IMG/VR virus record: IMGVR_UViG_3300024255_001751
Location: 1-41,453 of that record
Origin: a virus
Direction: 5' to 3' (one strand)
DNA length: 41,453 nucleotides
Of the stretch, positions 11,920 through 14,226 are shown piece after piece. The translations under genes were made by a program, and so were the position numbers. A model generated the notes under the pieces. It was given only the letters and a program-made list of their open reading frames with translations, was not told where the DNA came from and made no database searches. The number at the start of each line of letters is the position of its first letter. Position 1 is the stretch's first letter.

Positions 11920-12054
11920 TTAGAACGTCTCGTACATTTTATGTTTGAACTCAGATATTTCGTCAGCTTTTTTATAGTAGCCTTTGTTTCTTAATTCACG
12001 AATTGCCATACAGTAACTTCTGTACTCCATTGCTTTTAGAAACTTTCTAAACAT
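11920..12054 (-). CDS. 44-aa basic protein, possibly DUF1127-related
   Basis: The short frame starts MFRKFLKAMEYRSYCMAIRELRNKGYYKKADEI (split here only for reading: MFRKFLKAMEYRSYCM then AIRELRNKGYYKKADEI). The motif A-x-R-E-L-x-N-x-G-Y resembles ASELSRMGYHKEA in the neighbouring protein and loosely the DUF1127 L-S-D-x-E-L core. It overlaps the upstream gene by 8 bases, which supports expression. Function unknown; RNA binding would be a guess by analogy. Confidence 0.6.
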   Translation of the reverse strand: MFRKFLKAMEYRSYCMAIRELRNKGYYKKADEISEFKHKMYETF

Positions 12055-12247
12055 CTTTGTTGTCTTTCTGTAGCATCAAAGCCTTTGCTTCTTTATGATA
12101 TCCCATACGAGATAGTTCAGATGCAGCTCTTGCTCTACCTGCTGACTCGCCCAAAGCAATCATACCTACTATAATACATGTAAAAAACTTGTATACAAGT
12201 GGTAAAGGGTTACGAATTTTGACTGGTGTATTTCCTACAACTTCCAT
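12047..12247 (-). CDS. small protein with one membrane helix and DUF1127-like tail (66 aa)
   Basis: The start at 12247 overlaps the previous stop (TAATG) and is preceded by AAAAGGGTGG; an ATG three codons earlier is also possible. Residues 14-32 are hydrophobic (LPLVYKFFTCIIVGMIALG). The C-terminal part is RARAASELSRMGYHKEAKAL, echoing the helix repeat in the 44-aa protein. It is the middle gene of a three-gene leftward set with a DUF1127 protein. Function unknown. Confidence 0.65.
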   Translation of the reverse strand: MEVVGNTPVKIRNPLPLVYKFFTCIIVGMIALGESAGRARAASELSRMGYHKEAKALMLQKDNKDV

Positions 12248-12489
12248 TATACCCACCCTTTTAAATTATGATTAACAGAACGGTTAAGAGTGCTGTCGCC
12301 ATATGCAATGTTACGGATGTCACCGCGAGCAATGCCTATGTCATTTAACTCATAATCTGATAGTGATGAAAGATCTTTGATTGTTTGTCTTACCTGGGCT
12401 CTGTAAGCGAGTTTGGCTTTAATTTTTTTAAACCAGCTTGCCAAGCCAGTCAGACCGATTGTGTCGGCCGCCATTATCAATGTAGTCAC
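12247..12489 (-). CDS. DUF1127 (YjiS-like) protein
   Basis: The 80-aa product has the DUF1127 core: RQTIKDLSSLSDYELNDIGIARGDI over about residues 34-58 (quoted in two parts: RQTIKDLSSLSDYEL and NDIGIARGDI). DUF1127 proteins are abundant in alphaproteobacteria, where some act as RNA-binding post-transcriptional regulators. GTG at 12489 with AAAGGAGAG seven bases upstream is the better start than the ATG at 12474. A long structured leader and a TATAAATA octamer lie upstream. This gene is a likely host-derived regulator. Confidence 0.8.
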   Translation of the reverse strand: MTTLIMAADTIGLTGLASWFKKIKAKLAYRAQVRQTIKDLSSLSDYELNDIGIARGDIRNIAYGDSTLNRSVNHNLKGWV

Positions 12490-12654
12490 AATGACTCTCC
12501 TTTATGTGTATATGTGTGTGATAGCAGGTCTGTCACGTACCCCTGGTCTTTGCTAGGCGTCACCTTTGTATGGCATAGGAATGCCCTTCATTTTTTATGA
12601 GCTGAAGACGCTCTAAATAGTACAGGATCACTGTCCTATTCGCTACTATTTATA
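12490..12654 (-). promoter_or_regulatory. TATAAATA promoter and long structured leader of DUF1127 operon
   Basis: A perfect T4 late-promoter core TATAAATA lies on the minus strand at 12654-12647. The roughly 145-base leader to the GTG contains small stems, including GGCAT-TCCT-ATGCC, and a possible 12-codon ORF beginning MKGIPMPYKG. No sigma70 box is obvious. Together with 12655-12776, where I see only AT-rich sequence, this fills the largest gene-free stretch of the window (12490-12838). Confidence 0.5.
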
Positions 12655-12776
12655 TAACAATAACACTATATTGCAAGGATTACTAGTGTTAATTTTGCAT
12701 TGCCGTTATGCAAAGTTTGCATATGTTGGACAACTGTAATCTGTTTGTAATCATATATTCGTTAAATAAAAGCAAT

Positions 12777-12832
12777 GGGAACAGGTGTTCTCATTTATTG
12801 TGAGCGATGGGGTAAAGCCATCAAGCAAGGAG
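12777..12832 (+). ncRNA. two-stem leader RNA element, copy 1
   Basis: Stem 1 is GGGAACA/TGTTCTC (12777-12792). Five bases later comes TTGTGAGC, a second stem GATGG-GGTAAAG-CCATC, then AAGCAAGGAG, which contains the SD of the gene at 12839. The 35 bases 12798-12832 recur at 13211-13245 with two differences that form a compensatory pair. A cis-acting translational regulator is likely; ligand or partner is unknown. Confidence 0.7.
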
Positions 12833-12838
12833 AAAAAA

Positions 12839-13150
12839 ATGAAAGCGATAATCACAGCAATACTAATGTGCATTATAACAACTACAGCCTATGCAGGACC
12901 GTATGTTGAATACAAGCACGAACACCAACACAAAGATTGGAAGTTTGACAAGAACACAGAACATCTACGTATTGGATACAAGGCTAAAAACAACCTTTAC
13001 TTTGAACTAGGACCAATGACAAACGGCCATAGTTACGAAGCAGGTTACAAAGTAAAATTAAATAAATTTACTTTTAAAGGCAAACTAGAAACAAAAGACA
13101 CAGGCATATCCAAATCAAAGTTAGAAACGGAAATTCGATATAACTTTTGA
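12839..13150 (+). CDS. small secreted barrel-like protein (103 aa)
   Basis: A Sec signal peptide (MKAIITAILMCIITTTAYA, cut after AYA) precedes about 84 residues with alternating aromatic/polar strands (YVEYKHEHQHKDW, LRIGYKAKNNLYFEL). The sequence ends in EIRYNF, and a terminal Phe is typical of outer-membrane beta-barrels. Its size allows only a small barrel or an oligomer. ATG at 12839 sits 6 bases after AAGGAG of the leader motif. It shares the leader with the PiT-like gene that follows, so the two are probably co-regulated. Two larger barrel proteins lie at 30542 and 39577. Confidence 0.7.
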   Translation: MKAIITAILMCIITTTAYAGPYVEYKHEHQHKDWKFDKNTEHLRIGYKAKNNLYFELGPMTNGHSYEAGYKVKLNKFTFKGKLETKDTGISKSKLETEIRYNF

Positions 13151-13179
13151 TTGACAGTAACATTGGGTGATGTTACAGT
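13151..13179 (+). promoter_or_regulatory. sigma70-like promoter with palindromic spacer
   Basis: TTGACA (13151-13156), 17 bp and TACAGT (13174-13179). The spacer holds a perfect inverted repeat GTAACAT-N6-ATGTTAC (13157-13176), which reaches into the -10. It could be an operator, or alternatively a hairpin ending the 12839 message, though no U-tract follows. Confidence 0.5.
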
Positions 13180-13187
13180 TAAAAAAT

Positions 13188-13245
13188 AGTAAGCAATTTC
13201 GCTTACTAGATTGTGAGCGACGGGGTAAAGCCGTCAAGCAAGGAG
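13188..13245 (+). ncRNA. two-stem leader RNA element, copy 2
   Basis: Stem 1 is AGTAAGC/GCTTACT (13188-13207), unrelated in sequence to copy 1. After three bases the shared block follows: TTGTGAGC, stem GACGG-GGTAAAG-CCGTC, and AAGCAAGGAG with the SD of the PiT-like gene at 13255. T-A in copy 1 stem 2 becomes C-G here, so pairing is preserved. Confidence 0.75.
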
Positions 13246-13254
13246 TAATAAAAA

Positions 13255-14226
13255 ATGGAAGCACTCACTTTATGGAGCCTCGTAGGGTTCCTATTCGCAG
13301 CATACGCTGTAATTGCCAACGACTCAGTACAGACTCTCGGTACATGGATGGCATCAAACAATGAGAGATTCAACTACAAAACTTTATGGGGAGCAGCAAG
13401 TGCGGTGTTACTTGCAACCTTATGGTATGGTTGGAGTGTAAATGGTGGCGACATCAGTTACGGAAGACTTAACAAGATACCCTGGCAAGAAGTACAATGG
13501 TATCATGCAGCCGCGCCTGCAATACTTGTTGCACTAACACGTTTAGGTGTACCAGTATCAACTTCGTTCTTGGTCTTATCAGTATTTGCTTCAACTTTCG
13601 TGTTGGAGAAAATGCTTATGAAATCAATAATGGGTTACGGTGTAGCCGCAGGTTTTGCATACATGGTATGGTTTGCTATAACAAAGTATGCAAACAGTTG
13701 GTTTGACGAAACGAAACCAGTAAGCGAAGAGAACAAGAAGTTTTGGCGCATTGCACAATGGATAGCAACTGGTGGCTTGTGGTGGACATGGCTTAGTCAT
13801 GACATGGCAAACATCGCTGTATTCCTACCACGTGTAATTCCTGTGGACTTAATGTTCCTAATCAGTTTTGTATTTGTAGCAGGTATGTTCTTTATGTTTA
13901 GAGAACGAGGTGGTAAGATACAACAAATTGTTCTAGAGAAGCATAATACAAAATATGTAAGATCAGCAACACTGATTGACTTATTCTACTGGTTGTGCTT
14001 GTACTTCTTCAAAGAGCTCAACGATATTCCTATGAGTACAACTTGGGTATTTGTTGGTCTACTTGCAGGACGTGAACTAGCAATGGCTACATACTATGGT
14101 AAGCAAAAAACTAAGAGTGTGTTTCCACTAGTGGCAAAGGACTTTGGAAAGATGATGGTTGGACTTGGTGCTTCGGTAGCATTGGTTCTTATGATACATT
14201 ATATTATTCTACCAAACGGACTATAA
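13255..14226 (+). CDS. PiT-family-like inorganic phosphate permease
   Basis: The 323-aa protein has 8-10 hydrophobic helices and the internal two-fold pattern of PiT transporters. The first half carries ANDSVQTLGT (residues 21-30) and PVSTSF (100-105). The second half carries HDMANI (182-187) and DIPMSTTW (257-264). In PiT proteins these are the GANDVAN and PVSTTH phosphate-site motifs; here they are divergent. PiT carriers import phosphate with H+ or Na+. The protein is shorter than cellular PitA, which has a large loop. The gene has its own leader RNA and ends at a strong terminator. The family call is probable; the substrate is inferred. Confidence 0.65.
   Translation: MEALTLWSLVGFLFAAYAVIANDSVQTLGTWMASNNERFNYKTLWGAASAVLLATLWYGWSVNGGDISYGRLNKIPWQEVQWYHAAAPAILVALTRLGVPVSTSFLVLSVFASTFVLEKMLMKSIMGYGVAAGFAYMVWFAITKYANSWFDETKPVSEENKKFWRIAQWIATGGLWWTWLSHDMANIAVFLPRVIPVDLMFLISFVFVAGMFFMFRERGGKIQQIVLEKHNTKYVRSATLIDLFYWLCLYFFKELNDIPMSTTWVFVGLLAGRELAMATYYGKQKTKSVFPLVAKDFGKMMVGLGASVALVLMIHYIILPNGL

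Follow-up and report, generated by a model that had tools for sequence, protein, structure and literature searches.

A new family of hairpin leader RNAs precedes phosphate-transport and outer-membrane genes of uncultured T4-like phages

The window analyzed here, a contig of 41,453 bases from an uncultured virus, contains two genes, one for a small outer-membrane barrel and one for a phosphate permease-like protein, that are introduced by nearly the same leader, and the question it raises is what this repeated leader is and why it stands before these genes. The original prediction took the two copies for a structured translational regulator, perhaps connected with phosphate or envelope control. 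The locus is laid out as follows, in window positions:

12247..12489, minus strand: DUF1127 small protein (PF06568, E=1.8e-10), the divergent neighbor of leader 1
12764..12771, plus strand: weak T4-late-promoter-like box TTAAATAA before leader 1, present as GTTAAATA (6/8), at -41
12776..12794, plus strand: 5' hairpin of leader 1, about ATGGGAACA-GGTG-TGTTCTCAT
12798..12832, plus strand: leader motif copy 1, UUGUGAGC-GAUGG-GGUAAAG-CCAUC-AAGCAAGGAG; stem 12806-12810 with 12818-12822; Shine-Dalgarno sequence (SD) at the 3' end; 65 bits
12839..13150, plus strand: Phage_OMP (PF24653, E=3e-9) small outer-membrane beta-barrel, 103 aa, first regulated gene
13188..13208, plus strand: 5' hairpin of leader 2, TAGTAAGC-AATTTC-GCTTACTA
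13211..13245, plus strand: leader motif copy 2, UUGUGAGC-GACGG-GGUAAAG-CCGUC-AAGCAAGGAG; stem 13219-13223 with 13231-13235; SD at the 3' end; 64 bits
13255..14226, plus strand: PiT-like inorganic phosphate permease, 323 aa, second regulated gene (alignment of PiT signatures; PHO4 below cut-off)

When the two leaders are aligned they have 35 nt in common, 413 nt apart, and the two positions at which they differ are a single base pair (TA in one, CG in the other), as had been proposed; it is the middle pair of a 5-bp stem. In DNA letters the copies read TTGTGAGC-GATGG-GGTAAAG-CCATC-AAGCAAGGAG and TTGTGAGC-GACGG-GGTAAAG-CCGTC-AAGCAAGGAG. The window holds these two copies of the motif and no more, and its 25-nt core, with up to three mismatches allowed, gave 0 chance matches in 100 shuffles of the window. 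The separate hairpins described upstream of the copies (GGGAACA/TGTTCTC in leader 1 and AGTAAGC/GCTTACT in leader 2) are both present. What did not hold is a fixed distance from the motif to the start codon: the gap from SD to ATG is 7 nt in one window leader and 10 nt in the other, and in a set of 70 non-redundant leaders AARC and GGA are separated by anything from 2 to 8 nt.

The proposal of a structured leader with true compensatory changes was borne out by covariation over 58 distinct aligned rows. All five pairs of the conserved stem are retained in relatives, in 100% of cells, and every one of them shows two-sided changes (1, 16, 19, 9 and 18 cells); the pairs take GC, CG, AU, UA and some GU forms, with GU in 6 cells of the inner helix. 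There are at least ten distinct 5-bp stems, including GACGG, GATGG, GATGT, GCAGG, GCAGT, GACAG, GACAA, AACGA, GCGAT and GCCGT, each paired with its partner. The real alignment scores 0.50 for covariation, compared with 0.14 +/- 0.015 for shuffled alignments and at most 0.11 when the helix is slid by 1-3 columns; RNAalifold returned the identical helix unprompted, and the mean pairing probability of the stem within whole leaders is 0.90. We regard it as almost certain that the element is a structured RNA. The loop has the consensus N-G-(U/A)-(A/C)-A-A-N, most commonly GGUAAAG, with variants built on GUAAA, GAAAA or GACAA, or one base longer, and the hairpin is flanked by G-Y-R-AG-C on its 5' side and AARC on its 3' side. 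G7 and C30 are invariant, and four flanking bases (A6, G7, A27 and A28) are strongly conserved. An extra pair C8-G29, inward of G7/C30, was considered and is unsupported, since 14 of the 58 rows are unpaired there and one UA change was seen. No segment complementary to the SD was found in any part of the motif (z about 2), and no long-range partners were found for the loop.

With respect to known RNA classes, the covariance models of Rfam 15 give no match in the window at gathering score, and none up to E=5 in 12720-13300 or in 12440-12700, so that the possibility raised at the outset of a known Rfam class falls away. Whether further copies exist in other phages, a second point on which the original prediction turned, is answered by approximately 130 viral leaders; a degenerate pattern gave ten additional viral loci, one of which (L005) has the independent stem GCAGG/CCTGC. 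All motif-bearing sequences come from contigs of uncultured viruses, and a record contains one or two copies of the motif; two contigs of 230 kb and 221 kb, both encoding T4 gp23, have a single copy each. The strict pattern returned 8 chance-like matches from 84,980 bacterial species genomes, all of them without the stem, and the additions from a scan with variable stem lengths were mostly unrelated coding matches. The phages form a large, T4-like group of hundreds of contigs in which no cultured member was found; the nearest isolates by gp23 are the Sinorhizobium phages phiN3/phiM12 (67% identity), and this kinship and the presence of DUF1127 genes suggest that the hosts are alphaproteobacteria. 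The leader is a real, new RNA family absent from Rfam.

The genes that carry the motif fall into four unrelated types: the PiT-like permease, the phosphate-binding protein PstS (PBP_like_2, E=1e-49), small outer-membrane barrels (103-194 aa, the short ones assigned to Phage_OMP), and a Cys-rich peptide of 55 aa whose gene has PiT downstream. The suspected link to phosphate and envelope genes is thereby upheld by the motif's occurrence before PiT, PstS and the barrels, and in front of all four gene types it lies on the coding strand every time, directly 5' of the SD. When 143 PiT genes were inspected, 124 had the motif directly 5', and in 9 of the remaining 19 it precedes the small gene immediately upstream, which places the element, as a rule, at the head of the transcription unit. 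Four more have a variant pair of hairpins, which we call type B, one contig is cut off, and for the last 5 no motif was found on reading the DNA before the start codon. The type-B leaders (L263 2427-2492, L266, L268 and L321 2101-2163) consist of two hairpins with the loops UGGUAAAAG or UGGUCAAAG, which resemble GGUAAA; they have no GAGC/AAGC flanks, stand before PiT or a small barrel, and may represent an older version of the element or a sister to it.

For PstS the picture is sparser, with the motif in only 5 of 42 leaders read (L179, L180, L183, L184 and L186), each time on a contig that has a PiT gene as well; PstS relatives occur in Pelagibacter phage Mosig, where the motif is absent. With PhoB-box-like sites sought as tandem CTGTCAT-like repeats 4 nt apart, PstS phages without the motif have a mean score of 9.17 of 14, against 7.91 in shuffled sequence, and 50 motif leaders have a mean of 8.36 of 14 against 8.09, that is, no excess; window leader 1 contains a single 11/14 PhoB-box-like match, 68 nt before GAGC. 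The gene association of the motif is specific and biologically sensible, and it very probably marks a phosphate-acquisition regulon. As a separate observation, many phage pstS genes without the motif (L201, L207, L209, L210 and others) have CTGTTACA-like PhoB-box sequences upstream, and promoters with such sites may be host-controlled.

Of the two window genes, described at the outset as coding for a barrel protein and a PiT-like permease, the first belongs to Phage_OMP and the second shows PiT signatures; the permease falls short of the Pfam family PHO4 (PF01384), its E value being 3.8 in the window and 0.1 in L166, with scores of 6.8-12 bits against a cut-off of 33.7. In the first half of the permease, ANDsvqtlGT and PVSTSF align with GANDVANAmGT and PVSTTH of cellular PHO4 in a weak profile alignment (P=0.07), and SHDMAN and PMSTT can be read in the second half, so that the PiT assignment is a putative one at the level of signatures only. 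A predicted structure had a pLDDT of 40 and was unusable as a model. The protein was found in 456 viral contigs with a first seed and in at least 561 with a second; it was found in none of the isolated phages of INPHARED and in none of 399 bacterial genomes (one phylum sample, no positive control). With hundreds of phage copies and sub-threshold similarity to PHO4, the permease at 13255-14226 may represent a phage-specific transporter branch. Its codon usage has two peculiarities: of 44 non-redundant motif-bearing genes, 34 encode Leu4 by CTC, a codon that is rare in the rest of the gene (5.6%), and Leu site 28 is 96% CTC for no known reason.

Upstream of the motif, most leaders have a second, 5' hairpin of different sequence, with a mean z of -2.6 against -0.7 in a control stretch; z lies below -1.5 in 84% of leaders and in 22% of the control. 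The 3' end of this hairpin is usually about 4-11 nt before GAGC, and T-runs follow it in some leaders. Two loops recur in this hairpin among the 70 non-redundant leaders: A-CGUYGA, conserved across many different stems, in 27 of them, and GUAAA, as in the main hairpin, in 7 (0.5% expected). A search for CGUCGA-loop hairpins elsewhere in the fetched contigs found none, the single other match being the leader L099 itself. A T4-late-like box with at least 7/8 of TATAAATA lies upstream of 43 of the 70 leaders, against 12.6% in shuffles, and 40 of these 43 boxes are at -36 to -49 from the motif; transcription from such a box would begin just 5' of the 5' hairpin. Of the two window leaders, leader 2 lacks a box altogether and probably lies on the same transcript as leader 1, whose box is weak (TTAAATA).

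When these observations are considered together, they suggest that phosphate uptake is controlled at the level of the messenger RNA and not via the usual DNA switch of the host. The likeliest reading, to which we would give about an even chance of being right, is that the element is a phage-borne cis-regulatory RNA for a phosphate-acquisition regulon, acting as a translational operator read by a trans-acting RNA-binding factor. The leader would then consist of two modules: the 5' hairpin, which varies in sequence and presumably lies close to the start of the transcript, and the conserved hairpin GUGAGC-(5 bp)-NG(U/A)(A/C)AAN-(5 bp)-AARC, which continues on its 3' side into the SD. A phage- or host-encoded RNA-binding protein would read the GNRA-like pentaloop together with the GAG and AARC bases on either side, the NGUAAAN loop being the feature that such a factor would recognize. 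By binding the leader, this protein would alter ribosome access to the SD, which follows within a few nucleotides, and translation of PiT, PstS and the small barrel may in this way jointly follow phosphate state. The translational level of this control, its protein ligand, its phosphate signal and its direction are what we infer.

Loops such as GUAAA, GAAAA and GACAA belong to a sequence type that is able to take a GNRA-like shape with an extruded base, and GACAA is the loop of P22 boxB, where it is held by the Arg-rich N peptide (PMC12550061). On balance, the observations favor a trans-acting factor: the 2-8 nt spacing between AARC and the SD, combined with the lack of an SD complement, argues against an aptamer that fixes the SD in place, and when the repetition of the loop in the 5' hairpin is added, a trans-acting protein is favored over an SD-sequestering aptamer. 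We count the type-B leaders, with two similar-loop hairpins and no GAGC/AAGC flanks, toward the same reading. As a counterpoint, the conserved bases A6, G7, A27 and A28 would fit a small aptamer too.

A small metabolite- or ion-sensing riboswitch is the first alternative, in which GUGAGC/AARC and the loop would form a pocket and the binding of a ligand, be it phosphate, a phosphorylated nucleotide (PRPP or ppGpp, for example) or some other signal, would alter access to the SD; we consider this reading credible but unlikely. Conserved unpaired bases around a covarying helix beside the SD, before several functionally related genes, are hallmarks of riboswitches, and a PRPP synthetase gene lies 3' of PiT in the window. 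In leaders of the GUGAGC type, codons 4-5 of PiT are usually CUCAC, complementary to the GUGAG box (window 13255-13290 and relatives), and a GUGAG/CUCAC helix enclosing the SD and the AUG is possible in these genes. However, this partner is peculiar to PiT, being absent from the OMP, PstS and 55-aa genes, Leu site 28 has its CTC without such a reason, and ancestry may explain the enrichment. The missing SD-complementary segment, the variable spacing, the recurrence of the loop in some 5' hairpins and the type-B leaders without flanks also count against a riboswitch. The narrower version, in which the phages would run a phosphate-uptake regulon of their own, independently of host PhoBR, through a natural riboswitch that senses inorganic phosphate itself or a direct proxy for it such as PRPP or a phosphorylated alarmone, is improbable.

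It is also rather doubtful that the leader is a constitutive stabilizer or translation enhancer of late transcripts, in which the 5' hairpin would block 5' decay and the second would keep the SD single-stranded, with no sensing involved. In most leaders the 5' hairpin does lie just after a T4-late-like promoter box, and a similar promoter-plus-hairpin arrangement, without the motif, is found before PstS of Pelagibacter phage Mosig. A general late element should nevertheless be common, whereas each record has only one or two copies, always at phosphate-type genes, and the sequence conservation of loop and flanks would be unneeded for stability alone. Pairing of the loop with a host or phage small RNA (through a CUUUACC-type seed) is very improbable: the 7-nt loop is exposed and conserved beside the SD, but the tolerated loops GGAAAAA, GGACAAG and UGUUAAAG would break such pairing yet keep the GNRA-like shape, and no small RNA gene was identified. 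Least of all do we credit a DNA-level origin, either as an inverted-repeat transcription-factor site or, for the upstream hairpins and their T-runs, as terminators of the preceding gene, because ten or more different stems with pairing always kept, GU pairs and a strand-specific loop in one fixed orientation favor RNA over a DNA operator, and because the gene 5' of leader 1 is divergent and leaves that hairpin nothing to terminate.

For the trans-acting factor that we favor, the DUF1127 protein is a candidate by association only. It is encoded in 19 of 25 searched records of this phage group (the window and 24 others), including all six of at least 100 kb. A specific partnership with the motif is weakened by its presence in 8 of 16 PstS-bearing records without the motif, which means that it may equally act on host PhoR. 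Bacterial DUF1127 proteins repress pstS via PhoR (PMC12501420), and CcaF1, a DUF1127 protein, binds RNA according to work cited there. The phage protein, whose gene adjoins the leader in the window, belongs with the DUF1127 small proteins that include the SDPs of A. tumefaciens, Rhodobacter CcaF1 and YjiS; it is only a candidate binder of this RNA and may act on host PhoR independently.

Several further features of the neighborhood were recorded. Upstream of the DUF1127 gene there is another long leader (window 12490-12655, minus strand), which contains TATAAATA and a 5' hairpin as well as a conserved block; the block AGAGCGUCUUCAGCUC...GGGCAU-UCCUAUGCC...GACCRGGGGUACGUGAC is common to several phages (L060, L067, L071 and L093), and a different conserved block, GGAGUAAAAC...GACUCGGAUCACA, is found in L047, L075 and L114. 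This leader, which has no counterpart in Rfam, is possibly a second cis-RNA; no statement made here draws on an alignment of such leaders in which one row ran in the wrong orientation. Beside DUF1127, in about one third of the fetched loci, is a 69-aa protein (window 12047-12256, minus strand) with one hydrophobic stretch, the tail GRARAAxELSRxGxHxEAKALML and no Pfam match. Heme oxygenase (PF01126) and ferredoxin-dependent bilin reductase (PF05996) genes adjoin the phosphate genes upstream of the OMP-PiT pair in L037, L041 and L050, and recurrent neighbors of the phosphate cluster are an alternative oxidase (PF01786, E=1e-80; L028, L032, L062 and L071) and a plastocyanin/azurin-type copper protein (PF00127; L052, L067, L073 and L097).

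The T4 sites for gp43, gp32 and RegA are hairpins beside the SD that are bound by a phage protein and control translation, and they lie on replication or early genes and are mostly autogenous. The motif is likewise a phage RNA hairpin next to the SD, but it spans four transport-type gene families and, as far as the Rfam comparison goes, is not known to resemble any of the T4 operators in sequence. With the lambdoid boxB it shares a 5-bp hairpin and possibly a GNRNA-like pentaloop, the GAAAA and GACAA sequences both occurring here, and the small Arg-rich DUF1127 proteins often encoded near it recall the N peptide; it differs in its location, which is beside the SD and not within a site of antitermination, and in having the pentaloop within a 7-nt loop with a closing mismatch (G.G, U.G or G.A). 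No boxA-like CGCUCUUA was seen on reading either window leader. Like the SAM-II/SAM-V and preQ1-type marine riboswitches the motif is a short leader RNA that abuts the SD; unlike them, it has no Rfam match (E<=5) and no SD pseudoknot, and its spacing is variable. In cyanophages P-SSM2 and S-PM2, the phage pstS is under the control of host PhoB through a Pho box (PMC10976474). The two situations are alike in placing phage phosphate genes under phosphate-linked control (putatively so here) and differ in that a DNA site for a host regulator is used there and a shared RNA hairpin is found here.

As a compact element proven by covariation, the leader can be tested in reporters and used as bait for its binding factor, and a covariance model of the motif finds phosphate operons in viromes. 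If the ligand were phosphate itself, the family would be a riboswitch class that is not known to have been described. Phosphate genes carried by phages are thought to be important for the flow of phosphorus, and the cases that have been studied are driven by host PhoB at the promoter; the family described here points to a second, RNA-level way of running phage phosphate genes.
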